The notes under the pieces: model-generated
What the model was told of the DNA's origin: nothing
What the model saw: only the letters and a program-made list of their open reading frames with translations
The model's database searches: none
Shown here: in pieces, positions 777 through 29,379 of the stretch
Numbering within the stretch: position 1 is the stretch's first letter
How the letters are laid out: the number at the start of each line of letters is the position of its first letter
Program-made: the position numbers and the translations under genes
Assembly (NCBI GenBank): GCA_902762855.1
Contig: CACWPR010000020.1
Location: 1 to 43,726 of the forward strand
DNA: 43,726 bases
Direction of reading: 5' to 3'
Source: Ruminococcus flavefaciens
GTDB lineage: Bacteria > Bacillota > Clostridia > Oscillospirales > Ruminococcaceae

Positions 777-830
777 TAAGTGTCATTAAGCATCGTTTAA
801 TTTATTATTTAAGTGAAGGAGTGGAATATC

Positions 831-13425: not shown

Positions 13426-13457
13426 GTAATATATATGTATTGAAAGGAATGATCTCA

Positions 13458-15395
13458 ATGGGTTTTACACTTACCGAGAAAATACTCAGAGCTCATCTCG
13501 TTGACGGCGAGTATGTAAAGGGACAGGAGATCGGCATAAAGATCGACCAGACCCTCACTCAGGACGCTACGGGCACTATGGCCTACCTCGAATTCGAGGC
13601 TATCGGCGTTCCAAGAGTCAAGACAGAGCGCTCTGTTGCTTACATTGACCACAACACTCTCCAGAACGGCTTCGAGAACGCTGATGACCACCGTTTCATA
13701 GGCAGCGTAGCAAAGAAGCACGGCATCTGGTTCTCACGTCCCGGAAACGGCATCTGCCACCAGGTACATCTTGAGAGATTCGGCATCCCCGGAAAAACTC
13801 TCATCGGCTCAGACAGCCATACTCCCACAGGCGGCGGTATCGGAATGATAGCTATCGGTGCAGGCGGACTGGATGTTGCTGTTGCTATGGGCGGCGGCGC
13901 TTACTACATAACCTGCCCTAAGGTAGTCAGAGTTGAGCTTACAGGAAAGCTCCGTCCCTGGGTAGCTGCAAAGGACGTTATCCTTGAAGTCCTCCGCAGA
14001 CTTTCCGTTAAAGGCGGCGTCGGCAAGGTCATCGAGTACTGCGGTGAGGGTGTAAAGACCCTTTCAGTACCTGAGAGAGCAACTATAACCAATATGGGTG
14101 CAGAGCTCGGTGCTACAACATCTATATTCCCTTCTGATGAGATAACAAAGCAGTTCCTGAAGGCTCAGCAGCGTGAAGAGGTATGGACTCCTCTTGCAGC
14201 AGACCCTGATGCTGAGTATGACGAGGAGCTCACTATAGACCTCAGCCAGCTCGTACCCCTTGCTGCCTGTCCTCATTCTCCTGATAATGTAAAGAGCGTT
14301 GAAGAGATCGGCAGACTCAAGGTAGACCAGGTCTGCATCGGTTCATGCACAAACTCTTCTCTCCTTGATATGCTCAAGGTAGCTTATATCCTCAAGGGCA
14401 AGACAGTTGACCCAAGCGTTTCACTGGCTATCGCTCCAGGTTCTAAGCAGGTGCTTAATATGCTGGCTCAGAACGGAGCACTCTCCGACCTTATTGAGGC
14501 CGGTGCACGTATCCTTGAAAGCGCCTGCGGACCTTGTATAGGTATGGGACAGTCTCCTAATTCCGGCGGTATCTCCCTCCGTACCTTCAACAGAAACTTT
14601 GAGGGACGCTCCGGAACAAAGGACGGCCAGATATACCTTGTATCTCCTGAAATGGCAGCAGTATCTGCCCTTACAGGCTATCTCACAGACCCCAGAGAGC
14701 TGGGCGATATGCCTGAATTCAAGCTCCCTGAGGTATTCACTGTCAACGATAATATGGTCGTTCCTCCTGCTTCTGAGGAGGAGATGGACAGCGTTGAGAT
14801 ACTCCGCGGCCCCAACATAAAGCCCTATCCTGAGACAACTCCTCTTCTTGAGACTATCGACGCTCCTGTATCTCTGAAGGTCGGTGATAACATAACAACT
14901 GACCATATCATGCCTGCCGGTGCTAAGATACTTCCTCTCCGTTCAAATATCCCGAAGATCTCACAGCACTGCTTTGCTGTATGCGATGAGAGCTTCCCTG
15001 AGAGAGCTAAGTCTCTTGGAAAGAGCATAATCGTAGGCGGTTCAAACTACGGTCAGGGCTCATCCCGTGAGCACGCTGCACTTGCACCCCTTTACCTTGG
15101 CGTAAAGGCTGTTCTCGTTAAGTCATTCGCACGTATCCACAGAGCTAACCTTATCAATGCAGGTATACTTCCGCTCACATTCGTGAACGAGGCTGACTAT
15201 GACAAGATCGCTCAGGGCGACGAGCTGGTGCTTGCAGATGTGAGAAAGGCTGTTGAGGAGGGCAAGTCCGAGCTGACAGTCGTTGACAAGACAAACGGTG
15301 CTGAGATCCCCGTTCTCTGCGAACTTTCAGGACGCACTAAGGACATCATGCTTGCCGGCGGACTTCTTGACTTCACAAGAGAGTCCATGAAGTGA
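13458..15395 (+). CDS. acn: Aconitate hydratase
   Basis: 645 residues, the compact aconitase form common in Clostridia. It interconverts citrate and isocitrate through cis-aconitate. The [4Fe-4S] ligands are C297 (GSCTN), C357 and C360 (ACGPCIG). The substrate-binding SDSHTPTGGG motif and the C-terminal swivel domain (GGSNYGQGSSREHAALAP, about 550) are present. The start at 13458 is preferred over 13440 and 13449 because GAAAGGA then has usable spacing. It lies 45 nt upstream of icd, with no terminator between, and in one unit with rex. Confidence 0.95.
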   Translation: MGFTLTEKILRAHLVDGEYVKGQEIGIKIDQTLTQDATGTMAYLEFEAIGVPRVKTERSVAYIDHNTLQNGFENADDHRFIGSVAKKHGIWFSRPGNGICHQVHLERFGIPGKTLIGSDSHTPTGGGIGMIAIGAGGLDVAVAMGGGAYYITCPKVVRVELTGKLRPWVAAKDVILEVLRRLSVKGGVGKVIEYCGEGVKTLSVPERATITNMGAELGATTSIFPSDEITKQFLKAQQREEVWTPLAADPDAEYDEELTIDLSQLVPLAACPHSPDNVKSVEEIGRLKVDQVCIGSCTNSSLLDMLKVAYILKGKTVDPSVSLAIAPGSKQVLNMLAQNGALSDLIEAGARILESACGPCIGMGQSPNSGGISLRTFNRNFEGRSGTKDGQIYLVSPEMAAVSALTGYLTDPRELGDMPEFKLPEVFTVNDNMVVPPASEEEMDSVEILRGPNIKPYPETTPLLETIDAPVSLKVGDNITTDHIMPAGAKILPLRSNIPKISQHCFAVCDESFPERAKSLGKSIIVGGSNYGQGSSREHAALAPLYLGVKAVLVKSFARIHRANLINAGILPLTFVNEADYDKIAQGDELVLADVRKAVEEGKSELTVVDKTNGAEIPVLCELSGRTKDIMLAGGLLDFTRESMK

Positions 15396-15440
15396 TAAGC
15401 CGGAAAACTTGTATAAAACTAACTATGGAGGTATGAGCCA

Positions 15441-16655
15441 ATGGCAAAGATAACAATGAAAACTCCTCTTGTGGAGATGGACGGCGACGAGATGACCCGT
15501 ATCCTCTGGCAGTGGATAAAGGAAACTCTCCTTGAACCCTATGTAGAGCTCAACACTGAGTATTACGACCTTGGACTCAAGCATCGTGAGGAGACCAAGG
15601 ACCAGGTAACTATCGACTCTGCTGAGGCTACAAAGAAGTACGGTGTAGCAGTAAAGTGTGCAACTATCACTCCTAACGCTGCAAGAATGCCTGAGTACAA
15701 TCTGACTCAGATGTGGAAGTCACCCAACGGAACTATTCGTGCTGCATTGGACGGTACAGTATTCCGTACACCTATAATCGTAAAGGGCATCGAGCCCTAT
15801 ATCCCTACCTGGACAAAGCCTATCACTATCGCACGTCATGCATACGGCGACGTTTACAAGAACACAGAGATGCGTGTAAGCAAGGGCAGCAAGGCTGAGC
15901 TCGTTGTGACCGACGAGAACGGCAACGAGACCCGTGAGCTCATCCACGACTTCACAAAGTGCGACGGTATAATCCAGGGACTTCACAACCTTGACGATTC
16001 TATCGCCGGCTTTGCAAGAGCCTGCCTTAACTACGGTCTTGACCTCAAGCAGGATGTATGGTTCGCATCAAAGGACACTATATCAAAGAAGTATGACCAC
16101 CGCTTCAAGGACATCTTTGCTGAGATATATGAGAACGAGTACAAGGAGAAGTATGAGGCAGCAGGCATTGAATACTTCTACACTCTCATCGACGACGCTG
16201 TTGCCCGTGTTATCCGTTCAAACGGCGGCTATATCTGGGCCTGCAAGAACTACGACGGCGACGTTATGTCGGATATGGTATCCACTGCTTACGGCAGCCT
16301 TGCCATGATGACATCAGTTCTCGTTTCACCTGACGGAATATACGAGTATGAGGCTGCTCACGGAACTGTACAGCGCCACTACTACAAGTACCTCAAGGGT
16401 GAGGAGACCTCCACAAACTCCGTTGCAACTATATTCGCATGGAGCGGTGCGCTCCGCAAGAGAGGAGAGCTGGACGGCACTCCTGAGCTCTGTGACTTTG
16501 CAGACAAGCTGGAAAAGGCAACTATCCAGACTATCGAGGACGGTGTTATGACAGGCGACCTCTACCTCATCTCCAAGCTCAACAATAAGAAGAAGGTTGA
16601 TTCCAAGACATTCCTTGACGAAATAAAGCTCAGACTTGACAAAGCGATGAACTAA
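15441..16655 (+). CDS. icd: NADP-dependent isocitrate dehydrogenase
   Basis: 404 residues, matching the homodimeric eukaryote-like NADP-IDH subfamily in length and sequence ([11 protein letters not shown] near the start, [10 protein letters not shown], and [10 protein letters not shown] after the HG of the active-site loop). It oxidises isocitrate to 2-oxoglutarate, giving NADPH and the carbon skeleton for glutamate. GGAGGT precedes the ATG. It sits between acn and rex, forming the oxidative arm of an incomplete TCA cycle. No citrate synthase or 2-oxoglutarate oxidation gene is in the window. Confidence 0.96.
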
Positions 16656-16672
16656 GAGAGAAGGCATGAAAA

Positions 16673-17320
16673 ATGTCGAAAAACTCAATATCAAATTCAG
16701 TTATACGAAGGCTGCCGAGGTACTACCGCTTTCTCGGTGAGCTTGAGAACAATGGATATGTAAGGATATCGTCAAGGGAGCTCTCTGAAAAAATGGGGCT
16801 CACAGCCTCTCAGATAAGGCAGGACTTCAACTGCTTCGGAGAGTTCGGCCAGCAGGGCTACGGCTACAACGTAAGCGACCTGAGGGCGGAGATAGGCCAT
16901 ATACTCGGCCTGGACGAGCATACTCCCATGATACTTCTGGGAGCCGGAAACCTTGGAAAGGCTATCGCATCCCACATAGACTTCCAGAGCAAGGGCTTTG
17001 ACCTGATAGGTGCCTTTGATACTAATGCTGACATCATCGGCAAGGAGATAGGCGACCTTACAGTAAGGGACATTGACGAGCTGGAGCAGTTCTGCCGGGA
17101 GAACAAGCCTGTGGCAGCCATACTCTGCGTACCTACCGGTGCGGCAGAGAAAATGGCAGACCTGCTTATAGGGCTTGGCATAAAGGCTTTCTGGAATTTT
17201 ACTCATTATGATATGAGAGCAGGCAGACACGGGATAGCAGTCGAGAACGTACATCTCGGAGACAGCCTGACAACACTTTCCTACGGACTCAATTCCATGG
17301 AGCACGGGGAAGAAGAATAA
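16673..17320 (+). CDS. rex: Redox-sensing transcriptional repressor Rex
   Basis: 215 residues. An N-terminal winged helix (RLPRYYRFLGEL; SSRELSEKMGLTASQIRQDF) is followed by a Rossmann domain with GAGNLG (90-95) and GAFDTN. Rex binds DNA when NADH/NAD+ is low and releases it when NADH rises, controlling fermentation genes. It lies 17 nt after icd in the same unit. It is a natural candidate to regulate both this unit and the fumarate operon beginning at 17849. Confidence 0.96.
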   Translation: MSKNSISNSVIRRLPRYYRFLGELENNGYVRISSRELSEKMGLTASQIRQDFNCFGEFGQQGYGYNVSDLRAEIGHILGLDEHTPMILLGAGNLGKAIASHIDFQSKGFDLIGAFDTNADIIGKEIGDLTVRDIDELEQFCRENKPVAAILCVPTGAAEKMADLLIGLGIKAFWNFTHYDMRAGRHGIAVENVHLGDSLTTLSYGLNSMEHGEEE

Positions 17321-17363: not shown

Positions 17364-17754
17364 AAAATTTAAAGAAAAGAATGTGAATATTTTATCAATC
17401 ATTTGCCTGAGATATTCTGAAAACTATATATTCTGATTCTGTTTTTATATGAGATTTTTTGCCGGAGAAAGAGCAGTTTTAATGAAAAATGAAATCTTAA
17501 CAGACAAAAGACCGGTTGTATGGATACATTACATGACTTGCTGCGGTGAAAAAACAGGCTTTCTTTAGCGAAAGGATAAAGTTTGTAAGTCAAATGCAAC
17601 AAAAACGGATTTGACTTGAAGGAAATATATATCTAAGTCGGACGGGATATAAAAACAAATATGGTGTATATTGATATCATATGCTGGATTCTGACAAGTT
17701 TGTCAATTGTGAATTTTATATCAATATGTGAATAGCGATATTCTGAAACTGCAT
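17364..17754. promoter_or_regulatory. Gene-free AT-rich region with nested inverted repeats upstream of fumC
   Basis: No credible ORF. AAGTCAAAT (17587-17595) is inverted at 17609-17617. ATATTGATAT (17668-17677) is inverted at 17718-17727, and between them lies the palindrome GACAAGTTTGTC (17693-17704). TTGTGAA (17707-17713) is a Rex-type half-site whose partner (ATATCAA) matches at 4 of 7 positions. This is the likely control region of the fumarate operon. Confidence 0.5.
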
Positions 17755-17783
17755 TTGAAATTATCACGTCTAACTGATATACT
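17755..17783 (+). promoter_or_regulatory. Promoter of the fumC-hdr-flx-frd operon
   Basis: TTGAAA (17755-17760), 17-bp spacer, TATACT (17778-17783). Predicted start near 17790. Confidence 0.55.
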
Positions 17784-17848: not shown

Positions 17849-19225
17849 ATGGAATACCGTATCGAACATGACTCAATGGGAGAAGTAAAGGTCCCTGCTG
17901 ACAAGTACTGGGCTGCTCAGACAGAGCGCAGCCATGAGAACTTCCTTATCGGAGTGGGCATTGAGACTATGCCCAGAGAGATAACTCACGCTTTCGGCAT
18001 ACTCAAAAAGGCTGCTGCTATCGCAAACCATGCAGTAAAGCCTGAGAAGATGACCGATGAAAAGCTCTCCGCTGTCAGCCAGGCCTGCGACGAGGTCATC
18101 AGCGGCTCGCTCAATGACCACTTCCCTCTGGTAGTATGGCAGACCGGAAGCGGTACTCAGTCCAATATGAACGCAAATGAAGTCATCGCCAACAGGGGAA
18201 ATGAGATAGCAGGCGCTAAGCTCCTTCACCCGAACGATGATATAAACATGAGCCAGTCCTCCAACGACACCTTCCCTACAGCAATGCACATAGCTGCTGT
18301 ACTGGCAGTTGAGGACAAGGTGATACCTGCTATAGATACTCTCGTTTCTACCTTTGAGAGACTGGAAAAGGAGAATGAGGGCATCGTAAAGAGCGGACGT
18401 ACTCACCTCCAGGACGCTACTCCCATAAAGTTCTCACAGGAGATAAGCGGCTGGAGAGCATCCCTTGAAAAGGACAGGAAGATGCTCCTCACAGCCTGCG
18501 AAGAGCTCAAGGAGCTCGCACTTGGCGGAACTGCCGTAGGTACAGGACTCAACGCTCCTGCCGGATTTGCAGAGAAGGCTGCTGAGGCTATCAGCACTCT
18601 CACAGGAAAGTCCTTCGTGACAGCTCCAAACAAGTTCCACTCCCTTACCTCAAAGGACGAGATAGTATTTGCACACGGAGCTCTGAAGGCTCTTGCTGCT
18701 GACATGATGAAGATAGCAAATGACGTAAGATGGCTGGCATCCGGTCCCAGAGACGGTCTCGGAGAGATATTCATTCCTGAGAATGAGCCCGGTTCCTCTA
18801 TCATGCCCGGAAAAGTCAACCCCACTCAGTGTGAGCAGGTGACTATGGTGGCTGTACAGGTAATGGGCAACGACGTCGCAGTAGGAATGGCAGCTTCACA
18901 GGGCAACTTCGAGCTGAACGTGTTCATGCCCGTCTGCGCTTACAACTTCCTCCAGTCCGCAAGACTTCTTGCTGAGTCTATCCTGTCCTTCAACAAGAAC
19001 TGTGCGGTAGGCATCAAGGCCAACAAGGATAAGATGCACCACAACCTCCACAACTCCCTCATGCTCGTAACAGCTCTGAATCCCTACATCGGCTACGAGA
19101 ACGCAGCAAAGACTGCAAAGAAGGCTTTCAAGGACAACATCTCCCTGAAACAGGCCTGCGTTGAGCTGGGATTCCTCACAGAGGAGAAGTTCGACGAGGT
19201 ATTCCACCCCGAAGAAATGTGCTGA
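17849..19225 (+). CDS. fumC: Class II fumarate hydratase
   Basis: 458 residues, the usual class II (iron-free) fumarase length. It converts malate to fumarate and back. Signatures are SGTQSNMNANEV (substrate site), QSSNDTFPTAMH, GRTHLQDATP and the SS-loop GSSIMPGKVNPTQCEQ. GGGAG precedes the ATG. It is the first gene of the operon and would make the fumarate that FrdAB reduces. The next gene begins 18 nt after its stop. Confidence 0.96.
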   Translation: MEYRIEHDSMGEVKVPADKYWAAQTERSHENFLIGVGIETMPREITHAFGILKKAAAIANHAVKPEKMTDEKLSAVSQACDEVISGSLNDHFPLVVWQTGSGTQSNMNANEVIANRGNEIAGAKLLHPNDDINMSQSSNDTFPTAMHIAAVLAVEDKVIPAIDTLVSTFERLEKENEGIVKSGRTHLQDATPIKFSQEISGWRASLEKDRKMLLTACEELKELALGGTAVGTGLNAPAGFAEKAAEAISTLTGKSFVTAPNKFHSLTSKDEIVFAHGALKALAADMMKIANDVRWLASGPRDGLGEIFIPENEPGSSIMPGKVNPTQCEQVTMVAVQVMGNDVAVGMAASQGNFELNVFMPVCAYNFLQSARLLAESILSFNKNCAVGIKANKDKMHHNLHNSLMLVTALNPYIGYENAAKTAKKAFKDNISLKQACVELGFLTEEKFDEVFHPEEMC

Positions 19226-19243
19226 TCTGAAAGGATGTGTACT

Positions 19244-20041
19244 ATGGAAACTTTTACATATTATCCGGGCTGTACGCTCAGAACTAAGGCAAAGGACCTT
19301 GATACATACGCAAGGTCCTCAGCCGAGGCTCTTGACATAAAGCTGGAAGAGCCTGCTGACTGGCAGTGCTGCGGCGGCGCCTATACCACTGCCAAGGATG
19401 AGATAGCTACAAAGCTCTCTGCCGTCAGGACCCTCAATGCCGCAAAGGTCCTTGACAGACCGCTCATCACAGTCTGTTCCGCCTGTCATAACGTTATAAA
19501 GCAGACAAACTACGATATTTCCAATGACGAGGACATGGCTGCTAAGGTGAACAATTACCTCAAGCTGGACCAGCCATATGCCGGCGAGACTACTGTTTAC
19601 CACTACCTTGAGATGCTCCGTGACGTTGTCGGCTTTGACAACCTCAAAGCGAAGGTAGTCAATCCGTTCAAGGGCAAGAAGATCGCAGCATACTACGGAT
19701 GTCTCCTTCTGCGCCCCTCAAAGGCTCTTGCCATGGATGATCCGGAGAATCCCTCTATCATGGAGGACTTCATCCGTGCTATCGGCGGAACTCCCGTGAT
19801 ATACTCCCAGAGGAACGAGTGCTGCGGAGGCTATATCACTATGGAGGACAAGGCTCAGGCTCAGAAGAGAAGCGCTGCGGTAATGGATTCAGCAGCAGAC
19901 CAGGGAGCTGATATGGTGATAACAGCCTGTCCTCTCTGTCTCTACAACCTGAAGAAGAACTCAGGCTCAGAGCTGCCGGTATACTACTTCACAGAACTGC
20001 TTGCCGAGGCTCTCGGCGTTAAGGAGGCCAGCAATGAATAA
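19244..20041 (+). CDS. hdrB: Heterodisulfide reductase subunit B-like CCG protein
   Basis: 265 residues with two complete cysteine-rich CCG repeats: C10/C42-C43/C78-C81 and C153/C193-C194/C229-C232. In methanogen HdrB these hold two non-cubane [4Fe-4S] clusters that split a disulfide; in SdhE-type succinate dehydrogenases and thiol:fumarate reductase the same domain links to an Sdh/Frd flavoprotein. All ligands are present, so the subunit should be active. The start at 19244 gives GAAAGGA proper spacing; the ATG at 19235 is too close to it. It overlaps hdrC by 8 nt. The bacterial substrate is unknown; methanogen CoM-S-S-CoB is not expected here. Confidence 0.9.
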   Translation: METFTYYPGCTLRTKAKDLDTYARSSAEALDIKLEEPADWQCCGGAYTTAKDEIATKLSAVRTLNAAKVLDRPLITVCSACHNVIKQTNYDISNDEDMAAKVNNYLKLDQPYAGETTVYHYLEMLRDVVGFDNLKAKVVNPFKGKKIAAYYGCLLLRPSKALAMDDPENPSIMEDFIRAIGGTPVIYSQRNECCGGYITMEDKAQAQKRSAAVMDSAADQGADMVITACPLCLYNLKKNSGSELPVYYFTELLAEALGVKEASNE

Positions 20042-20417
20042 GAATCTGAAAGAACAGGTCCTTCGCTCCAGCGGAGTAAACGTGCTGAAATGTATGCGCT
20101 GCGGAAAATGCTCCGGCACCTGTCCCTCCTATGATGAGATGGAATATCATCCCCACCAGTTCGTATATATGGTGGAAAAGGGCGATATAGAGACCCTTAT
20201 GAACTCGAAGTCAATATACAAGTGCCTTACCTGCTTTGCCTGTGTGGACAGATGTCCCAGAAACGTAGAGCCGGCCAAGGTGGTAGAGGCTGTAAGACTT
20301 GCAGCAGTACGTCAGCAGGGCAATAATCATATGACACCCGCAGACCTGCCGGATATGCTTGATGAGGACCTTCCTCAGCAGGCAATAGTCACAGCATTCA
20401 GAAAATACATAAAGTAA
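20034..20417 (+). CDS. hdrC: Heterodisulfide reductase subunit C-like iron-sulfur protein
   Basis: 127 residues. Two [4Fe-4S] motifs are visible: C20-C23-C26-C30P and C64-C67-C70-C74P, each CxxCxxCxxxCP. In Hdr complexes HdrC wires electrons from HdrA to HdrB. The start at 20034 lies inside the end of hdrB, with AAGGAGG at 20021-20027. No membrane segment is present, so this is the soluble type. Confidence 0.9.
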   Translation: MNKNLKEQVLRSSGVNVLKCMRCGKCSGTCPSYDEMEYHPHQFVYMVEKGDIETLMNSKSIYKCLTCFACVDRCPRNVEPAKVVEAVRLAAVRQQGNNHMTPADLPDMLDEDLPQQAIVTAFRKYIK

Positions 20418-20430
20418 GGAGGAGACAGCC

Positions 20431-22422
20431 ATGCAGAGAATAGGTGTATTTGTCTGTCACTGCGGTACAAATATCGCCGCAACAGTGGATGTTAAAGCAG
20501 TTGCCGAGGCTCTCGGACACGAGCCGGGAGTAGTAGTCTCACAGGACTACCAGTATATGTGCTCTGAGTCCGGACAGAACCTTGTCAAGAACGCTATAAA
20601 GGAGCATAATCTCACAGGTGTAGTTATCTGCTCATGTTCACCGAGAATGCACGAGAACACATTCAGAAAGGCTGCCGCCGCCGCCGGACTGAACCCCTAT
20701 CTTGTAGAGATAGCAAACATCCGTGAGCAGTGCTCATGGATACACAAGGACATTGCAACAGCTACAGAAAAGGCTGTTATACTGGGAAGAGCTGCTGTAG
20801 CTAAGGTACATCTCAATGCTCCTCTCATAGCAGGAGAGAGCCCTGTAGCCAAGAGAGCGCTTGTTATCGGCGGAGGTATCGCCGGAATCCAGACTGCTCT
20901 TGATATAGCTGAGGCAGGTTTCGACGTTGATATCGTTGAAAAGAATCCTACTATCGGCGGAAAGATGGCTCAGATAGACAAGACCTTCCCCACACTGGAC
21001 TGCGCCGCCTGTATCCTCACTCCTAAAATGGTAGAGGCATCACAGAATGAGAAGATACACATCCACTCATTCAGCGAGGTCACAGATGTAAAGGGATTCG
21101 TAGGTAATTTCACAGTTACCATAAAGAAGAAGGCACGTTTCGTGGACGAGACCAAGTGTACCGGCTGCGGACTCTGTACAGAGAAGTGCCCCATGAAGAA
21201 GGTCCCCAACGAATTCAACATGGGTCTTGATAACAGGACCGCAATATACATCCCCTTCGCACAGGCAGTGCCGAAGGTGGCAACTATCGACCCCAACTAC
21301 TGCATGATGCTGAAGAACGGCAAGTGCGGAGTTTGCTCAAAAGTCTGCTCAGTAGGAGCTATCGACTATAAGCAGGAGGACCGCTTCATCGAGGAGAAAT
21401 ACGGTGCTATCGTAGTAGCTACCGGATTCAATCCCATAAAGCTGGACAAGTACGATGAGTTCGCATACAATCAGTCTCCTGACGTAGTAACATCACTTGA
21501 GCTTGAGAGACTTATGAATGCTGCCGGCCCCAACGGCGGAACACTTCTCCGTCCCTCCGACAAGACTCATCCCCACAAGATAGTATTCGTACAGTGCGTA
21601 GGTTCAAGATGTGACGACAGCAAGGGCAAGCCCTACTGCTCCAAGATATGCTGTATGTACACCGCAAAACACGCAATGCTCATCCGTGAGAAGTACCCGG
21701 ATACTGAGGTATATGTATTCTACATAGATGTCCGTACACCCGGTAAGAACTTCGATGAGTTCTACCGCAGAGCCGTTGAGCAGTACAATGTACACTATAT
21801 CAAGGGCATGGTGGGCAAGGTAACACCTCAGAGCAACGGAAAGCTCCATGTACAGGCCTCTGACCTGCTTGCAAACGAGCAGCTCCATATTGATGCAGAC
21901 ATGGTTGTTCTTGCAGCAGCTATCGAGCCGGACAAGACAGCCCGTCCTCTTGCAACGATGCTCACAACTCAGATGGATACAAACGACTTCTTCACTGAAG
22001 CTCACCCCAAGCTCCGTCCTGTAGAGAGCGCAACAGCAGGCATATTCCTCTCCGGAGCCTGCCAGGGTCCTAAGGACATCCCTGAGACTGTTGCCCAGGC
22101 AAGTGCCGCAGCTGCAAAGGCTATCGGACTTCTCTGCAAGAACAGCATAACCTGCAACCCTTGTGTTGCACACTCCGATGAGCTCATGTGCAATGGCTGC
22201 TCGTCCTGTGAAAAGGTTTGTCCCTACGGAGCTATCACATACATCGACAAGGAATTCAGAATGCCGGACAGAACAACTAAGGTCCGCAGAGTTGCCAGCG
22301 TCAATCCCGCTGTATGTCAGGGCTGCGGCGCTTGTACAGTTGCTTGTCCTTCGGGAGCAATGGATCTCAACGGCTTCTCTAACAGCCAGATAATGGCGGA
22401 GGTAGACGCAATATGCAAGTAA
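20431..22422 (+). CDS. hdrA: Heterodisulfide reductase subunit A-like flavoprotein
   Basis: 663 residues. HdrA carries the FAD thought to bifurcate electrons. The N-terminal domain (~1-135) has VCHCGTNI and ICSCSPRMHENTF. The FAD motif VIGGGIAGIQTAL (~144) is followed by IGGKM and the conserved DCAACILTPKM. Iron-sulfur sites are CTGCGLCTEKCP, CGVCSKVC, CNGCSSCEKVCP (from 587) and CQGCGACTVACP (from 629), so the C-terminal ferredoxin insert is complete. GGAGG precedes the ATG. It overlaps the MvhD-like gene by 10 nt. It is the HdrA of an Flx/Hdr system; bifurcation itself is inferred from the family. Confidence 0.92.
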   Translation: MQRIGVFVCHCGTNIAATVDVKAVAEALGHEPGVVVSQDYQYMCSESGQNLVKNAIKEHNLTGVVICSCSPRMHENTFRKAAAAAGLNPYLVEIANIREQCSWIHKDIATATEKAVILGRAAVAKVHLNAPLIAGESPVAKRALVIGGGIAGIQTALDIAEAGFDVDIVEKNPTIGGKMAQIDKTFPTLDCAACILTPKMVEASQNEKIHIHSFSEVTDVKGFVGNFTVTIKKKARFVDETKCTGCGLCTEKCPMKKVPNEFNMGLDNRTAIYIPFAQAVPKVATIDPNYCMMLKNGKCGVCSKVCSVGAIDYKQEDRFIEEKYGAIVVATGFNPIKLDKYDEFAYNQSPDVVTSLELERLMNAAGPNGGTLLRPSDKTHPHKIVFVQCVGSRCDDSKGKPYCSKICCMYTAKHAMLIREKYPDTEVYVFYIDVRTPGKNFDEFYRRAVEQYNVHYIKGMVGKVTPQSNGKLHVQASDLLANEQLHIDADMVVLAAAIEPDKTARPLATMLTTQMDTNDFFTEAHPKLRPVESATAGIFLSGACQGPKDIPETVAQASAAAAKAIGLLCKNSITCNPCVAHSDELMCNGCSSCEKVCPYGAITYIDKEFRMPDRTTKVRRVASVNPAVCQGCGACTVACPSGAMDLNGFSNSQIMAEVDAICK

Positions 22423-22859
22423 ATGAGAATAAAGAGTTTGAACCACTGATAGTTGCCTTCTGCTGCAACTGGTGTTCCTATGCCGGAGCAGACCTCTCCG
22501 GAACAAACAGACTGAATTACCCTACAAACGTAAAGATAATCAGAGTGCCCTGCTCATGCAGAGTAAACCCTATGTTCATTCTGAGAGCCTTTCAGAGAGG
22601 GGCTGACGGAGTAATCCTCTGCGGCTGCCACCCCGGAGACTGCCACTACACTTCCGGTAACTACTTCACCAGAAGAAGAATGACACTTCTCTTCAGTATG
22701 CTGGACTTCCTCGGTATCGAGAGAGACCGTACAAGAGTAGAGTGGGTATCCGCTGCGGAGGGAGCAAAATTCGCAGCAACTATGAACGAATTCACCGAGG
22801 CCGTAAAGAAGCTCGGCCCTAACCGGAGACTGGAGGATCTGAGATGCAGGAAACAATGA
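22413..22859 (+). CDS. flxD: MvhD/FlxD-like iron-sulfur subunit
   Basis: 148 residues of the MvhD/FlpD family, which passes electrons from a hydrogenase, formate dehydrogenase or Flx module into HdrA. Family features are the cysteines in FCCNWCSYAGADL, PCSCRVNP and LCGCHPGDCHY, which bind a [2Fe-2S] cluster. The ATG overlaps the hdrA stop, with GGAGG upstream inside hdrA. It overlaps the next gene by 16 nt, so all are translated from one mRNA. Confidence 0.9.
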   Translation: MQVNENKEFEPLIVAFCCNWCSYAGADLSGTNRLNYPTNVKIIRVPCSCRVNPMFILRAFQRGADGVILCGCHPGDCHYTSGNYFTRRRMTLLFSMLDFLGIERDRTRVEWVSAAEGAKFAATMNEFTEAVKKLGPNRRLEDLRCRKQ

Positions 22860-23815
22860 TAAACAGAGCAAAACAGCTCCTTGCTGACGGCACAGTTACT
22901 CGTGTTATCGGTTGGAAAAGAGGAGAATTTGCATACGATATAACCCCTGCGGTATTTGAGAGTGCAGAGGAGCTGGAGTCAGATTTCGTATTTGATGACT
23001 TCACCTCAGCCAACGTTTCAAAGTATCTGGTAAAGGAGAGCGCAAAAGAGGGTAAGGTGCTTGTATTCCTCAAGCCCTGCGATACCTACAGCCTCAACCA
23101 GCTCACAAAGGAGCACCGTGTAAACAGGGATAACATCTATGTTATCGGCATCCCCGGCGGTCCTAAGCTGGACATCGAGAAGATAAAGGCAAAGGGCATA
23201 TCTGGTATACTCAGCGTCAGGAATGAGGACTACACTCTTAAAATAGAGACTATCTATGGCGAGGAGACAATGCCCTTCAGCGAGGCTATCCTTGACAAGT
23301 GCGCTTCATGCAAGAGCAAGAAGCACGTTACCTACGATGAGCTCATAGGTGAGGACGGAGATGTTCTTGACTCAAACCGCTTTGACATGGTTGAAAAGCT
23401 GGAGAATATGACAGCTCAGGAGAGATATGATTTCTGGAGGGAGCAGCTTTCAAAGTGTATCCGCTGCAATGCCTGCCGCAATGTCTGTCCTGCCTGCACT
23501 TGTGAAAAGTGCGTATTCGATAACCCTAACTCCGGTGTTGAGAACAAGGCTGCATCAGACAGCTTTGAGGAGAATATGTTCCACATCATCCGTGCATTCC
23601 ATGTTGCCGGAAGATGTACAGACTGCGGAGAGTGTTCAAGGGTATGCCCTCAGAACATCCCGCTGCACCTTCTGAACAGAAAGTTCATCAAGGACATAAA
23701 TGAGCTTTACGGCGCATATCAGGCCGGCGAGGACACCACATCAAAGGCTCCTCTTACAAACTACACATTCGATGACTGCGAGGCAAGCATCGTACATGAA
23801 AGGGGAGTTGAGTAA
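22844..23815 (+). CDS. Flx-type iron-sulfur protein with FrhB-like N-terminus (FlxC position)
   Basis: 323 residues. The N-terminal half (VLVFLKPCDTYSLNQL, IGIPGGPKL, CASCKSKKH) resembles the F420-hydrogenase beta/FrhB fold. The C-terminal half has two ferredoxin sites: CIRCNACRNVCP followed by CTCEKC, and CTDCGECSRVCP. Its place beside an MvhD-like gene and a PyrK-like gene fits the Fe-S subunits of FlxABCD. The letter (C or B) is set by position and is uncertain. A GGAGG lies 8 bases before the ATG at 22844. The stop overlaps the next ATG by one base. Confidence 0.8.
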   Translation: MQETMINRAKQLLADGTVTRVIGWKRGEFAYDITPAVFESAEELESDFVFDDFTSANVSKYLVKESAKEGKVLVFLKPCDTYSLNQLTKEHRVNRDNIYVIGIPGGPKLDIEKIKAKGISGILSVRNEDYTLKIETIYGEETMPFSEAILDKCASCKSKKHVTYDELIGEDGDVLDSNRFDMVEKLENMTAQERYDFWREQLSKCIRCNACRNVCPACTCEKCVFDNPNSGVENKAASDSFEENMFHIIRAFHVAGRCTDCGECSRVCPQNIPLHLLNRKFIKDINELYGAYQAGEDTTSKAPLTNYTFDDCEASIVHERGVE

Positions 23816-24834
23816 TGCTGAGGATATCAATTGACAAGATAGACAGCCTTTTCGCTGCAATAAGCGAAAAGCAGGCTCTTTATATCCCTGCAGACCGTGC
23901 TGACGGAGCTGCTGAGTACAAGAAGTACGAGGCCGGCATGAAACTGAGCGAAAAGCTCAATACAGTCCGCAGTGCAAAGGACTTCTTCTTCCCACAGACT
24001 GAAAACCTTGTGGAATTCAAAATGGAGGGCAAGAAGATAGAGGTAAAGGACATCCGCCAGGAGTCCGAGGACTTCGTTATCTTCGGAGTTCGTGCCTGCG
24101 ATGCAAGGAGCTTCACCATACTCGACAAGGTGTACCTTGTTGAACCAGTAGACAGCTACTACAAGAACCGCCGTGACCACGGCACTGTAGTGACAATGGC
24201 CTGCACAAGGCCTTCCGAGACCTGCTTCTGCCAGGCCTTCGGCATAGACCCCACAGCTCCTGAGGGGGACTGTGCAGTATGGAGCGACGGCTCATACTAC
24301 TACTTCAAGGCGAACACAGAAAAGGGTCAGGCATTTGTTGATTCCGTTTCCTCACTCTTAGAGGACGGCGATACAGCAGAGCTTGACAAGACTGTTGCAA
24401 AGACAAAGGAAATAATGGGCAGACTTCCCCTTGCTAAGCTCTCAACAGAGAACTTCGGCGGCGATAAGCTCAACGAGTACTTCAACTCCGACAAGTGGGG
24501 AGAGCTTTCCGAGAGCTGTCTCGGCTGCGGTACCTGCACATTCGTTTGTCCTACCTGCCAGTGCTACGACATAAAGGACTTCAAGACCAGCGACGGCATC
24601 AGACGTTTCCGCTGCTGGGACTCCTGTATGTACTCAGACTTCACAAAAATGGCACACGGAAATCCCCGACTCACTCAGCTTGAGCGCTTCCGTCAGAGAT
24701 TCATGCACAAGCTGGTGTACTTCCCGGCCAATAACAACGGCGAATTCGGCTGTGTAGGCTGTGGAAGATGCCTTTCCAAGTGCCCCATATCCATGAACAT
24801 AGTCAAGGTAATGAAAGCATTGGAGGTAAAGTGA
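23815..24834 (+). CDS. Flx-type 4Fe-4S dicluster protein, AsrA/HydB-like (FlxB position)
   Basis: 339 residues. The sequence resembles anaerobic sulfite reductase subunit A and the matching hydrogenase subunits: FGVRACDARSFTILDKVY, CTRPSETCFC, then CLGCGTCTFVCPTCQC and a C-terminal CVGCGRCLSKCP. These proteins pass electrons between an NAD(P)H-flavin subunit and downstream Fe-S partners. GGGGAG precedes the ATG. The gene starts on the stop of the previous one (TAATG) and ends on the start of the next (GTGATG), so coupling is tight. Confidence 0.82.
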   Translation: MLRISIDKIDSLFAAISEKQALYIPADRADGAAEYKKYEAGMKLSEKLNTVRSAKDFFFPQTENLVEFKMEGKKIEVKDIRQESEDFVIFGVRACDARSFTILDKVYLVEPVDSYYKNRRDHGTVVTMACTRPSETCFCQAFGIDPTAPEGDCAVWSDGSYYYFKANTEKGQAFVDSVSSLLEDGDTAELDKTVAKTKEIMGRLPLAKLSTENFGGDKLNEYFNSDKWGELSESCLGCGTCTFVCPTCQCYDIKDFKTSDGIRRFRCWDSCMYSDFTKMAHGNPRLTQLERFRQRFMHKLVYFPANNNGEFGCVGCGRCLSKCPISMNIVKVMKALEVK

Positions 24835-25664
24835 TGAACAGTAACGATACATTGATACCTTACGTTGGAGTCGTTACGGATATCCGTATAGATACTCCCG
24901 ATGTAAAGACCTTCCGTGTTGAGGCTCCCGAAGGCGGAAAGGTATTCGAGCATATGCCCGGACAGTGTGCGATGCTCTCTATCCCCGGAGTAGGTGAGGC
25001 TATGTTCTCTATAACCTCCTCGCCCACAAACAAGGAATTCATGGAATTCAGCATAAAGAAGTGCGGATGCCTCACAGAATGGCTCCACGCAATGGAAGTG
25101 GGCCAGATGATAACCATAAGAGGCCCCTACGGCAATGCTTTCCCGGTAGAGACAGAGCTCAAGGGCAAGGACCTGCTCTTCATCGCCGGCGGTATCGGAC
25201 TTGCTCCTCTCCGTTCGGTAATAAACTATGTCCGTGACAACAGAGCCAACTACGGTGATGTCCAGATAGTATACGGCTCCCGTTCCAAGGACGACCTTGT
25301 TGACTACAAGGAGATAATCGACGAGTGGATGACAGATGAGGGCATCGAGGTCAACCTCACTATCGACAATGCCCAGGAGGGCTGGGACGGTCATGTAGGA
25401 TTCGTTCCCAACTATGTCAAGGAGCTTGACCCTTCCATAAACAAGACAGTACTTATCTGCGGACCTCCGATAATGATAAAGTTCACACTCGCAGGTCTGA
25501 AGGAGCTGGGCTTCAAGGAGACTCAGGTATACACCACCATGGAGCTCCGCATGAAGTGCGGCGTAGGAAAATGCGGACGCTGCAACATCGGAAACAAGTA
25601 TGTCTGCAAGGACGGCCCTGTATTCCGTTTCGACCAGCTTGATGAGCTGCCGGATGAATATTGA
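24834..25664 (+). CDS. flxA: PyrK/FlxA-like NAD(P)H- and FAD-binding electron-transfer subunit
   Basis: 276 residues. A ferredoxin-reductase-like FAD domain (FSITSSP, ~60) and an NAD(P) domain (IAGGIGLAPLRS, ~120; CGPPIMI) are followed by a [2Fe-2S] site C242/C247/C250/C258, as in PyrK and AsrB. This is the expected entry point for NADH into the Flx-Hdr complex. The start at 24834 overlaps the previous stop; the longer ORF start at 24768 has no support. The gene after it is frdB, 18 nt on. NADH rather than NADPH is assumed from characterised Flx complexes. Confidence 0.88.
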   Translation: MNSNDTLIPYVGVVTDIRIDTPDVKTFRVEAPEGGKVFEHMPGQCAMLSIPGVGEAMFSITSSPTNKEFMEFSIKKCGCLTEWLHAMEVGQMITIRGPYGNAFPVETELKGKDLLFIAGGIGLAPLRSVINYVRDNRANYGDVQIVYGSRSKDDLVDYKEIIDEWMTDEGIEVNLTIDNAQEGWDGHVGFVPNYVKELDPSINKTVLICGPPIMIKFTLAGLKELGFKETQVYTTMELRMKCGVGKCGRCNIGNKYVCKDGPVFRFDQLDELPDEY

Positions 25665-25682
25665 TGACAAGGAGCTAAGGTT

Positions 25683-26366
25683 ATGGAAAATATGATAAAT
25701 GTTTACCTGTTTGGCAAGAAGTATCAGGTGCCGGCAGGACTTACTATAATGACAGCAATGGAATATGCCGGCTATGAGCTGGTAAGAGGCTGCGGATGCA
25801 GAAACGGATTCTGCGGAGCCTGCGCTACTATCTACAGGATAAAGGGCGAATCAGAGCTTCACGGATGTCTTGCCTGTCAGACAGAGGTACAGGAGAATAT
25901 GTATGTGGCAACTCTGCCCTTCTTCCCCCTTGAAAAGAGAGTATACAGCATAGAGGAGATCAAGCCTGACCAGCAGGTCATGATGCAGCTCTATCCTGAG
26001 ATATATGCCTGTGTAGGCTGCAATGCCTGTACAAAGGCCTGCACTCAGGAGCTGAACGTTATGCAGTACATCGCATACGCTCAGAGAGGCGAGTACGACA
26101 AGTGTGCTGAGGAGAGCTTTGACTGCGTAATGTGCGGAGTATGTTCCTCACGCTGTCCCGCAGGCATCTCACATCCTCAGGTAGCAATGCTTGCAAGAAG
26201 ACTCAACGGAAAGTACATCGCTCCGGAATGTCAGCATCTTGCAGACCGTGTTGACGAGATCAACGAGGGTATCTACGATGAGAAGATAGCTGAGCTCATG
26301 TCAAAGGCTGTTGATAACGTTCAGGAGCTGAAGGATATGTACAACAACAGAGAGATCGAGAAGTAA
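25683..26366 (+). CDS. frdB: Fumarate reductase/succinate dehydrogenase-like iron-sulfur subunit
   Basis: 227 residues. An N-terminal plant-type ferredoxin domain has a [2Fe-2S] site (C39/C44/C47/C62). A C-terminal ferredoxin domain has two full CxxCxxCxxxC sites: C110/C113/C116/C120 and C148/C151/C154/C158. Classical SdhB/FrdB binds 2Fe-2S, 4Fe-4S and 3Fe-4S, with quinone near the 3Fe-4S. Here both C-terminal motifs look like 4Fe-4S, which suits a soluble, quinone-independent partner. AAGGAG precedes the ATG. frdA follows after 12 nt, and no frdC/frdD or sdhC/sdhD anchor is present. Confidence 0.85.
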   Translation: MENMINVYLFGKKYQVPAGLTIMTAMEYAGYELVRGCGCRNGFCGACATIYRIKGESELHGCLACQTEVQENMYVATLPFFPLEKRVYSIEEIKPDQQVMMQLYPEIYACVGCNACTKACTQELNVMQYIAYAQRGEYDKCAEESFDCVMCGVCSSRCPAGISHPQVAMLARRLNGKYIAPECQHLADRVDEINEGIYDEKIAELMSKAVDNVQELKDMYNNREIEK

Positions 26367-26378
26367 GGGGGAGCAGAA

Positions 26379-27983
26379 ATGTATAAGATCGAAAAACTCA
26401 ACGAGCTTGCAAAGGTAGTCGCAGCACACAGAGCTGAGAACGCTGCTATGGAGCCGAGAAGAATGACTGCCGAGGAGAAGGATGACCTTCTCGCACATTT
26501 CCACCCCGACTATAAGCAGGACGAGTTCACAGTGCTCTCCGCAGGTGTGAACAAGGGTGATAAGGTCCCCACACAGCTTGCAGAGCTCTTACAGGGCAAG
26601 AGCCGCATTTCCGCAGGAGATGTAGACCTCACAAAGCCTGACTATGAGACAGATGTGCTCATCATAGGCGGCGGAGGAGCAGGTGCATCCGCAGCTATCG
26701 AGGCTGACGAGGCCGGAGTAAAGACAATGATCGTCACAAAGCTCCGTATAGGCGACGCAAACACAATGATGGCAGAGGGCGGCATCCAGGCTGCTGACAA
26801 GCCCAACGATTCTCCGGCTATACACTTCCTTGACGCTTTCGGCGGCGGACATTTCGCAGCAAAGCCTGAGCTTGTAGCAAAGCTGGTAACAAAGGCTCCT
26901 GAGGCTATCCAGTGGCTCAACAAGCTGGGTGTAGAGTTCGATAAGGAAGAGGACGGAACGATGGTCACCACTCACGGCGGCGGTACCTCCCGCAAGCGTA
27001 TGCACGCAGCAAAGGACTATTCCGGTGCTGAGATCATGCGTACTCTCCGTGACGAAGTAATAAACAGAGGCATCCCGGTAGTTGACTTCACAGCAGCTAT
27101 CGAGATAATCCTTGATGCAAACGGCAAGGCAGCCGGTGCAGTCCTCATGAACATGGAGACAAAGGAGCTCCTGGTGGCAAAGGCAAAGACAGTCATCATC
27201 GCAACAGGCGGTGCAGGACGTCTTCACTATCAGGGATTCCCCACATCCAACCACTACGGTGCAACAGCCGACGGACTTATCCTGGGCTACAGAGTAGGCG
27301 CAAAGCTGCTCTATGCTGACACTCTTCAGTATCACCCCACAGGTACAGGCTATCCAGAGCAGATATTCGGCGCCCTCGTAACAGAGAAGGTGCGTTCTCT
27401 CGGAGCAAAGCTGGTAAATATCGACGGTGAGGTATTCATGCATCCTCTTGAGACCCGTGATGTAACAGCAGCATCTATAATCCGTGAGTGTACAGCCCGT
27501 GACAAGGGTATCGAGACAAACCTCGGAAAGGCTATCTGGCTGGATACACCTATGATAGAGCTTATCCACGGCGAGGGAACTATCGAGAAGCGTATCCCTG
27601 CAATGATGAGAATGTTCGGCAAGTACGGCATCGACATCCGCAAGGAGCCTATCCTCGTTTATCCTACACTTCACTACCAGAACGGCGGACTTGACATCAC
27701 AGACGACTGTGCAACAGGTGTTGAGAACCTCTACGCAGCCGGAGAGGTTGCCGGAGGTATCCACGGCAGAAACAGACTCATGGGCAACTCCCTCCTTGAC
27801 GTTATCGTATTCGGCAGAAATGCCGGTATCTACGCAGCAGCCAAGGCAAAGGAGACTGCTGAACCTACAGGACTTACCCTTGAGCACATCGAGAAGTTCA
27901 ACAATGAGCTTGCATCTGCCGGAGTAGCAGGAGAGACAGCATCACCGATGCTCCTTCCCCACTACGCAAGAAGAGCAAAGTAA
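26379..27983 (+). CDS. frdA: Soluble fumarate reductase flavoprotein with non-covalent FAD site
   Basis: 534 residues. The FAD motif GGGGAGASA is at 97-105, after an unusual N-terminal extension of about 85 residues. Fumarate-site residues of the family are present: H318 (QYHPTG), R359 (ETRDVT, the proton-donor arginine position), H430 (PTLHYQNGG) and H461 with R463/N464 (HGRNRL). The histidine that binds FAD covalently in SdhA/FrdA (xHTxxAEGG) is N128 here, so FAD should be non-covalent, as in L-aspartate oxidase. NadB is an alternative, but the frdB partner and operon favour fumarate reductase. The gene is followed by a hairpin and a transporter gene. Confidence 0.85.
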   Translation: MYKIEKLNELAKVVAAHRAENAAMEPRRMTAEEKDDLLAHFHPDYKQDEFTVLSAGVNKGDKVPTQLAELLQGKSRISAGDVDLTKPDYETDVLIIGGGGAGASAAIEADEAGVKTMIVTKLRIGDANTMMAEGGIQAADKPNDSPAIHFLDAFGGGHFAAKPELVAKLVTKAPEAIQWLNKLGVEFDKEEDGTMVTTHGGGTSRKRMHAAKDYSGAEIMRTLRDEVINRGIPVVDFTAAIEIILDANGKAAGAVLMNMETKELLVAKAKTVIIATGGAGRLHYQGFPTSNHYGATADGLILGYRVGAKLLYADTLQYHPTGTGYPEQIFGALVTEKVRSLGAKLVNIDGEVFMHPLETRDVTAASIIRECTARDKGIETNLGKAIWLDTPMIELIHGEGTIEKRIPAMMRMFGKYGIDIRKEPILVYPTLHYQNGGLDITDDCATGVENLYAAGEVAGGIHGRNRLMGNSLLDVIVFGRNAGIYAAAKAKETAEPTGLTLEHIEKFNNELASAGVAGETASPMLLPHYARRAK

Positions 27984-27992
27984 TAGATATTC

Positions 27993-28012
27993 CGGGACGC
28001 TGATGCGTCCCG
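27993..28012 (+). other. GC-rich hairpin between frdA and the transporter gene
   Basis: CGGGACGC pairs with GCGTCCCG across a TGAT loop, 9 nt after frdA. There is no T-run (AAATCATG follows), so it may stabilise the upstream mRNA or lower expression of the transporter rather than terminate. Confidence 0.5.
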
Positions 28013-28048
28013 AAATCATGTTATATCAGAAAGATTGAGTGATAGATA

Positions 28049-29293
28049 ATGGAATTATTTGACGGTATACTTACCATAAAGAGCGTGACTTTCCTTATGT
28101 TTTCAGTCCTGGGCATTGCTGCACTCGGCTATATACTGGGAAGAGTCACGATAAAGGGCATCTCACTGGGAACAGCGGGAGTGTTCCTTGTGGCACTTCT
28201 TTTCGGATGCATTTTCCATGAGGAGCTTACCGGACAGCTTGTGACAAACATTACGGACAAGACAACAGGTGATATAGTTGACAAAGTATCATTCGTGGAC
28301 TCTGCACTAAAGATAGTAGATAACATCGGTCTCATACTCTTTGTTACAGCCGTAGGATTCATTGCAGGACCGAACTTCTTCGGGAACTTCAAAAAGAACT
28401 TCAAGTCCTACGTAGTACTGGCAGTGATAATCATATTCAGCGGCGGACTTGCCTGTGCAGGCTGCATAGCTGTCGGACGCAGCTTCACAGACCTTGACAG
28501 CAGTGAATTCACAGCGCTTATGACAGGTATTCTCTCCGGAGCACTGACAAGTACTCCTGGATTCTCCGCAGCTAAGGACGCAGCTCCTGACTATCAGAGT
28601 GCAGTATCAGTGGGCTACGGAATAGCCTATATCTTCGGTGTGCTTGGAGTAGTGCTCTTTGTACAGATAATCCCGAAAATACTTGGTGCCGATATGAGCA
28701 AGGAGCGTCAGCTCCTCAGAGCTGCTGATACAAAGAGCGACAAGAAGTCAGCTCCCGGCAAGCTGATAGAAATGGATGATTTCGGCATCATGCCCTTTGC
28801 ACTGGCGGCTGTTATCGGAATCTTCATCGGCTCTATAAAATTCAAGAACTTCTCACTTTCCACCACCGGCGGATGCCTGCTCGTTTCTCTCATCTTCGGA
28901 CATTTCGGACGTATCGGCAAGATAAATATCATGCCTAAGAATACGACGCTGAAGGTTTTCCGTGAGCTGGGACTGATGTTCTTCCTTATCGGCGCAGGTG
29001 TCTCCGGCGGAGCGAAGTTTGCCGAGTACTTCAAGGCAGTATACTTCATCTACGGCATCATCATGACACTTGTACCCATGATAATCGGCTTCCTGTTTGC
29101 GAAGTACGTGCTGAAGCTCAGTCTGCTGAACAATCTGGGTTCTATCACCGGAGGTATGACCTCCACACCTGCACTGGGTACACTTATCAGCACCGCAGGT
29201 ACAGAGGATGTAGCCTCAGCCTATGCGGCTACCTATCCTGTAGCTCTCATATCTGTTGTACTCGTATCGCAGTTTTTGATAATGTTATTCTGA
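28049..29293 (+). CDS. AspT/SucE (YidE-YbjL) family transporter, probable dicarboxylate exporter
   Basis: 414 residues with about 10 hydrophobic segments arranged as two Asp-Al_Ex repeats. Family marks are AALGYILGRVTIKGISLG, FIAGPNFF, TSTPGFSAAKD in repeat one and GGMTSTPALG in repeat two. Relatives include the aspartate:alanine exchanger AspT and the Corynebacterium succinate exporter SucE. Those proteins are about 530-560 residues and carry RCK_C/TrkA_C domains between the repeats; here only a short charged linker (~215-245) remains. Its position 65 nt after frdA makes succinate export the best guess; exchange of another dicarboxylate is possible. A strong terminator follows. Confidence 0.8.
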   Translation: MELFDGILTIKSVTFLMFSVLGIAALGYILGRVTIKGISLGTAGVFLVALLFGCIFHEELTGQLVTNITDKTTGDIVDKVSFVDSALKIVDNIGLILFVTAVGFIAGPNFFGNFKKNFKSYVVLAVIIIFSGGLACAGCIAVGRSFTDLDSSEFTALMTGILSGALTSTPGFSAAKDAAPDYQSAVSVGYGIAYIFGVLGVVLFVQIIPKILGADMSKERQLLRAADTKSDKKSAPGKLIEMDDFGIMPFALAAVIGIFIGSIKFKNFSLSTTGGCLLVSLIFGHFGRIGKINIMPKNTTLKVFRELGLMFFLIGAGVSGGAKFAEYFKAVYFIYGIIMTLVPMIIGFLFAKYVLKLSLLNNLGSITGGMTSTPALGTLISTAGTEDVASAYAATYPVALISVVLVSQFLIMLF

Positions 29294-29299
29294 TAAAGA

Positions 29300-29328
29300 G
29301 GCCGTTCCCGCAGAGGAACGGCCATTTA
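29300..29328 (+). terminator. Terminator of the fumarate operon
   Basis: GGCCGTTCC (29300-29308) pairs with GGAACGGCC (29315-29323) and is followed by ATTTATT. Confidence 0.75.
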
Positions 29329-29350: not shown

Positions 29351-29379
29351 TTGACAAAACGCAATGTGTAGGATATAAT
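29351..29379 (+). promoter_or_regulatory. Sigma-A promoter
   Basis: Perfect TTGACA (29351-29356), 17-bp spacer, TATAAT (29374-29379), for the small membrane protein at 29411. Confidence 0.75.

Follow-up and report, generated by a model that had tools for sequence, protein, structure and literature searches.

The 'succinate operon' of Pseudoclostridium thermosuccinogenes, for which ferredoxin-coupled fumarate reduction has been proposed (PMC7282089, which cites a 2019 preprint by Koendjbiharie and van Kranenburg), is composed of a fumarase, a seven-gene Flx-Hdr set, a two-gene fumarate reductase (Frd) and a putative succinate transporter. According to that report, the operon was about fourfold up in low CO2, significance not being reached for every subunit, and H2 almost abolished succinate formation, which its authors take as a sign of ferredoxin coupling. 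For Gammaproteobacteria with a reductive tricarboxylic acid (rTCA) cycle a related form has been proposed, with Hdr-Flx delivering electrons directly to TfrAB (PMC6315080, PMC11636981). We have analysed an operon at positions 17849-29293 of a contig of Ruminococcus flavefaciens (CACWPR010000020.1; "the window" is the whole stretch of 43,726 nucleotides) that has the same components as the P. thermosuccinogenes operon in a different organism, the order being matched by, and the likeness limited to, the published gene list. We think it probable that this operon encodes a soluble, quinone-free NADH:fumarate reductase, in which HdrABC-Flx would split the electrons of NADH between ferredoxin and, through HdrB, FrdBA. 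A sequence-only reading of the window had already suggested ferredoxin-coupled fumarate reduction; its link between Hdr-Flx and fumarate and the sign of its energetics stand, while the mechanism itself is in print for P. thermosuccinogenes (PMC7282089) and, in the related form, for rTCA bacteria. What our comparisons suggest as new is a strengthened case for the coupling and the indication of HdrB as the contact for FrdBA.

The same seven subunit types are found in FlxABCD-HdrABC of Desulfovibrio, reportedly described by Ramos et al. in 2015, but here they are joined to frdBA and fumC, and their HdrB belongs to a type of its own. DsrC was not found in the R. flavefaciens genome (93% complete in 143 contigs, so that this and the other absences are provisional), and DsrC as the acceptor was rejected for that reason. 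The rTCA clusters share the interspersion of Hdr-Flx genes with a TfrAB-type fumarate reductase, but as published they are tied to carbon fixation and 2-oxoglutarate:ferredoxin oxidoreductase (OGOR) and have another gene order, whereas the setting here is fermentation (PMC6315080, PMC11636981). TfrAB and SdhABE (8-methylmenaquinol:fumarate reductase, MFR) likewise combine the FrdA and FrdB families with an HdrB-like CCG protein, but the scores obtained here are far under the curated cut-offs. HdrB reached 149 bits with the SdhE model (cut-off 500) and 129 bits with the HdrB model TIGR03288, and the best NCBIfam names of FrdA and FrdB, TfrA (343 bits, cut-off 718) and TfrB, were both below cut-off. 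FrdB, with 227 aa, had no CCG match, i.e., no fused HdrB-like part of the TfrB kind. The genome search also gave no match for MqnA and only one far below cut-off for MenD, which again does not fit SdhABE. Neither does the system resemble a membrane quinol:fumarate reductase; as the sequence-only reading had held, the operon contains no membrane anchor for Frd, and the Sdh cytochrome b family PF01127 was detected in none of 40 genomes (own included), other anchor families being outside this search. Finally, in the MetFV-HdrABC-MvhD described from Moorella, HdrABC-MvhD is combined with another terminal reductase, with methylene-tetrahydrofolate in the place of fumarate and no FlxABC (PMC5861303).

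The open reading frame (ORF) list of the window and the profile matches confirmed eleven + strand genes in the order originally proposed (fumC, hdrB, hdrC, hdrA, flxD, FlxC-like, FlxB-like, flxA, frdB, frdA and the AspT/SucE-type transporter). The first ten form a compact block with overlaps or gaps of at most 18 nt, the transporter follows after 65 nt, and consensus scans place a promoter-like site and a terminator-like hairpin at either end of the eleven-gene unit. The FlxABCD-HdrABC gene set is complete, with seven adjacent genes that include an HdrB with two CCG domains. The features are as follows.

16673..17320, + strand: rex-type redox repressor gene (Put_DNA-bind_N and CoA_binding), upstream neighbour
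17707..17724, + strand: Rex-like operator TTGTGAATTTTATATCAA, consensus match
17755..17783, + strand: promoter-like site TTGAAA-17-TATACT with TG preceding the second hexamer, consensus scan only
17849..19225, + strand: fumC, class II fumarase (TIGR00979, above cut-off)
19235..20041, + strand: hdrB of the FrdA-tracking type, two CCG domains, ten cluster cysteines (profile matches, tree)
20034..20417, + strand: hdrC, HdrC-like, two 4Fe-4S (profile matches)
20431..22422, + strand: hdrA, FAD and Fe-S, candidate bifurcating subunit (profile and PDB 5odc_A matches)
22413..22859, + strand: flxD, MvhD/FlpD family (PF02662)
22844..23815, + strand: FlxC-like 4Fe-4S protein, named from position and composition
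23815..24834, + strand: FlxB-like 4Fe-4S protein, HydB/AsrA-like (profile matches)
24768..25664, + strand: flxA, NAD/FAD oxidoreductase subunit (NAD/FAD domains; start may be 24831)
25683..26366, + strand: frdB, 2Fe-2S and two CxxCxxCxxxC motifs, 227 aa (profile matches, alignment)
26379..27983, + strand: frdA, short soluble-type fumarate reductase flavoprotein (FAD_binding_2, alignment)
28049..29293, + strand: AspT/SucE-type dicarboxylate exchanger, candidate succinate exporter (Asp-Al_Ex)
29300..29323, + strand: terminator-like hairpin, consensus scan only

In the mechanism that we propose, FlxA would accept the electrons of NADH and pass them through FlxB, FlxC and FlxD to the FAD of HdrA, where they would be split. 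One stream would go to ferredoxin and the other, by way of HdrC and then both non-cubane clusters in the dedicated HdrB, to FrdB and the flavin of FrdA, at which fumarate would be reduced to succinate. FumC would provide the fumarate and the transporter probably exports the succinate. Reduced ferredoxin could feed Rnf (an RnfD/NqrB-type protein is present in the genome, 1e-116), in which case NADH and fumarate would pump ions indirectly, like a quinone chain does elsewhere. We infer NADH as the donor, the bifurcation, the direct transfer from HdrB to FrdB, succinate export and control by Rex. The coupled reaction is indeed downhill, as had been calculated from the sequence-only reading, with a standard free energy for 2 NADH, a ferredoxin pair and fumarate of -49 kJ/mol (ferredoxin at -420 mV) or -33 kJ/mol (ferredoxin at -500 mV). 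As for HdrA, its residues 3-660 align with PDB 5odc_A (E 1e-210), which is the solved bifurcating HdrA of methanogens, over the full length.

That Hdr-Flx is functionally tied to fumarate reduction, another claim made from the operon, is upheld by synteny and by a type of HdrB that tracks FrdA even where the genes are unlinked. In a tree of 54 HdrB rows (the near-copies L070 and L081 were excluded, as was L232, whose HdrB is truncated by a contig end) one clade with support of 97/99 contains all 24 frd-linked rows, four without HdrA among them, and also takes seven rows from unlinked hdrBCA-flx operons in FrdA genomes. Outside it are the 13 rows of FrdA-less genomes, without exception, and ten rows from FrdA genomes. 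A profile of the Frd-type HdrB (14 members, from 11 genomes) was run on 398 genomes of the phylum and left a clear gap, with 27 genomes at 366-419 bits, one (G338) at 302 and the remainder at 279 or less. FrdA was present in 28/28 genomes with the Frd-type HdrB (11 families) versus 11/370 without it (Fisher 2e-34), and in 17/17 versus 11/370 (1e-22) when the 11 profile genomes are left out, both values being inflated by shared descent. In seven of the 28, though, the Frd-type HdrB is unlinked to the FrdA genes, and since these cases span three families a functional tie is favoured over shared descent. The association of FlpD with FrdA is weaker (35/39 FrdA genomes versus 125/359 others). In the R. 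flavefaciens genome itself the only CCG protein and the only FlpD are both in the operon, which further supports the link, as do the failures to find DsrC and the quinone-linked Frd markers searched for.

We rejected the idea that HdrB alone tracks FrdA. The HdrA tree (38 rows, with L208 and the TRANS rows outside the HdrB clade excluded) needs three label changes if only frd-linked rows are labelled, but once the unlinked rows of FrdA genomes are labelled as well, 27 rows stand on one side with support of 86/87 (not starred). The whole Hdr module thus seems to track FrdA, HdrB doing so with the better support and also where HdrA is missing. In a residue comparison of the two HdrB types (L229, L231, L244 and L208 were excluded as very divergent and L233 as short) the ten cluster cysteines are kept in 31/31 Frd-type and 18/18 other sequences. 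Six positions, 14, 87 and 200 among them, are diagnostic of the type, and five of the six are no more than four residues away from a cluster ligand. Because the clade tracks FrdA and the diagnostic positions are near the cluster ligands, we read HdrB as the subunit that would contact FrdBA.

FrdA is short (alignments with solved relatives mostly begin at residue 84-92, in a few cases at 62-66, and end at ca. 480-506) and gave no match to the C-terminal domain PF02910 at E<=0.001, but the SdhA/FrdA-type FAD domain and the substrate-binding His, Arg and Glu residues are present. In an alignment of 58 rows, mostly close relatives and including one fragment (L109), the catalytic positions, which we take to correspond to the catalytic residues of E. 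coli, are kept throughout, bar one Ser for Thr. The position of the covalent-FAD His is Asn in 58/58 rows, so the FAD is probably non-covalent. Quinone-linked FrdB proteins carry a [3Fe-4S] motif on the quinone side; here both four-cysteine CxxCxxCxxxC motifs are complete, in 34/34 FrdB rows. An AlphaFold2 model of an FrdB-FrdA chain had a mean predicted local distance difference test score (pLDDT) of 58 and was discarded as too poor. ATP-dependent phosphoenolpyruvate carboxykinase was not found in the genome, the GTP form being outside the search.

In 60 genomes (own and relatives) the FrdA matches fall into two groups, of at least 73% and of 31-37% identity. The first kind is present in 39 of the 60 (34/36 of the genus and 5/24 others; in G003 through a 58-residue fragment only). 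Among the 398 phylum genomes the FrdA family occurs at 49% identity or more in 39 (own included), and relatives of ca. 40% in three. Named loci, the best 80 of at least 593 confirmed FrdA matches, include Blautia luti, B. glucerasea, B. schinkii, Dorea sp. 5-2, Mordavella massiliensis, Ohessyouella blattaphilus, Ruminococcaceae bacterium KHP2 and many metagenome-assembled genomes (MAGs). In every named locus whose upstream DNA exceeds 7.4 kb (57/57), B. luti (L193) included, the hdrBCA-flxDCBA-frdBA block is whole; in the other 23 of the 80 the upstream DNA is too short. In other words, the eight genes that precede frdA recur elsewhere in the same order every time, and this arrangement is not due to chance. 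The transporter was present in 43 of the 73 named loci with sufficient downstream DNA. Neither fumC nor rex was found in the fetched flanks of any of the 80, and their linkage to the block therefore belongs to the window's own lineage, where rex precedes fumC in 11/11 other same-genus loci reaching that far. One MAG has a second whole copy of the operon (L109, G033:C14) in which fumC, the FlxC-like gene, flxA and frdA are each split in two, probably because of misassembly or a mixed bin.

Away from the window, the phylum sample has 39 frdBA places (L062-L100), and these are more varied. A complete Hdr-Flx stands beside frdBA in only one (L095). Eleven have HdrCBA together with FlxD and additional HdrA-like and Fe-S proteins (two of them truncated at contig ends), four have FrdBA followed by HdrBCA with FlpD just downstream, and four have HdrCB-FrdBA without HdrA. 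The order HdrC-HdrB-FrdB-FrdA with no HdrA nearby is found at L086, L088, L094 and L096, reminiscent of a split thiol:fumarate reductase, in Clostridia relatives. At L080 and L083 FrdBA adjoins FMN-binding and membrane Fe-S proteins and, at L083, also NapC-like cytochromes (by eye); possibly these are membrane-linked versions.

Several observations weigh against a bifurcating complex that feeds FrdBA through HdrB. The fetched stretch is without Hdr in 19 of the 39 places (several on short contigs), and in eight of these the neighbours, named by eye, include class I fumarase, malic enzyme, pyruvate carboxylase, NapC-like cytochromes or dicluster Fe-S proteins. Four FrdA genomes are without FlpD or HdrB at E<=1e-40 (G126, G129, G353 and G435, with their FrdBA at L084, L064, L065 and L062, respectively). 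It follows from these places and genomes that FrdBA can use other donors; it appears to be an invariable module to which different electron inputs can be coupled. All ten cluster cysteines are kept in HdrB, so that disulfide chemistry would be compatible with it. In tubeworm symbionts the expression pattern of tfrAB is reported to differ from that of the hdr-flx cluster (PMC11636981). Besides, the open-access literature yielded no biochemical proof of NADH use or ferredoxin reduction, nor a purified bifurcating fumarate reductase.

The alternative that survives best, although we hold it to be unlikely, is a two-step route in which HdrABC-Flx would reduce a small or protein disulfide and FrdBA would re-oxidise the thiol with fumarate, as in the thiol:fumarate reductase of methanogens. 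The conservation of both five-cysteine cluster sets in HdrB is consistent with it, and so are the names TfrA and TfrB, even below cut-off. However, the absence of DsrC speaks against this route, FrdB has no thiol-oxidising CCG domain, and, as the genome has just the one CCG protein, both steps would fall to the same HdrB. The clustering of the diagnostic HdrB positions around the cluster ligands also looks as if the substrate site had been altered.

Somewhat more doubtful still is an NADH-dependent fumarate reduction without bifurcation, with HdrA merely relaying electrons. The ATP balance in a study of B. luti assumed such a plain NADH-dependent reductase (PMC12773636), the main text of which does not contain the terms hdra, flx or heterodisulfide. 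Against this are the full-length alignment of HdrA with the bifurcating enzyme of methanogens and the consideration that, for a plain reductase, the HdrA/FlxD part would be superfluous and a drop of 353 mV wasted.

Operation in reverse, in which imported succinate would be oxidised and reduced ferredoxin consumed (confurcation), is very improbable. Complexes of the Hdr-Flx kind are reversible in principle, but reduction is the downhill direction, and in E. coli Frd an Asn replacing the covalent-FAD His, as in all the FrdA rows here, favours fumarate reduction. B. luti, moreover, makes succinate (PMC12773636). The least credible reading, FrdA as an L-aspartate oxidase or other dicarboxylate flavoenzyme, can be dismissed, since although NadB models match too (TIGR00551, 270 bits against a cut-off of 453), a NadB-like gene with 32% identity is found separately on contig C22, fumC is inside the operon, frdBA has class I fumarase or malic enzyme as a neighbour in several other loci (by eye), and B. 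luti extracts are reported to have viologen-dependent fumarate reductase activity, with frdAB transcribed (PMC12773636).

Returning to the bifurcating complex, we give an even chance to a more extended proposal, that the dedicated HdrB is a docking subunit which feeds soluble FrdBA directly, with no disulfide in between, and that together with HdrA-Flx and Rnf it forms a modular, quinone-free fumarate respiration of gut Lachnospiraceae and Oscillospiraceae, so that ATP balances drawn up for Blautia luti and other succinate formers would need revising. If the complex bifurcates, the plain-NADH balance published for B. luti omits one reduced ferredoxin per succinate (PMC12773636). Succinate-forming Clostridia would then conserve energy at fumarate without quinones, soluble bifurcation and Rnf replacing complex I, menaquinone and a membrane fumarate reductase. 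Among the products exchanged by cross-feeding in rumen and gut, succinate is a major one, and the proposal of 2019-2020 can be tested directly, given the HdrB signature and a cultured gut bacterium that carries the block. For P. thermosuccinogenes, CRISPRi has been reported (PMC9044749).

Rex senses NADH/NAD+ and, judging from the sites ahead of the operon, is likely to be its regulator. The site at 17707-17724 recurs ahead of fumC in 9/12 same-genus regions (window counted). Within the window alone, 43 of 500 single-base shuffles reach at least 11/14 matches to TTGTTAA-N4-TTAACAA, which makes this a weak test, and in the order-level loci L104, L105, L106 and L108 no such site was found before fumC (at most 10/14). 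A pattern built from the site matched six times across four genomes, four times ahead of the operon and twice ahead of pgk, versus once for the reversed pattern; it was designed after viewing the sites, so the four operon matches are not independent, while the two at pgk are. In other Firmicutes pgk is a Rex target. Among the named loci, 8/57 regions before hdrB match the Rex consensus at 12/14 or more, B. luti and B. schinkii included, in comparison with ca. 0.1% of 1,140 single-base shuffles. Many same-genus promoters have a second conserved inverted repeat, GAATA-N4-TATTC, after the Rex-like site (17725-17760 in the window).

Upstream, at 13440-17320, there are genes for aconitase, isocitrate dehydrogenase and rex, and the same is found in most same-genus loci reaching that far. 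An oxidative and a reductive branch of a predicted split tricarboxylic acid (TCA) cycle are neighbours here. Directly past the terminator-like site, a perfect sigma-70 consensus (12/12) at 29351-29379 stands ahead of a small ORF at 29378. At the other end of the window, a large protein encoded at 813-3416 combines GH43, F5/8C and laminin-G-like domains with a dockerin, as in cellulosome producers.

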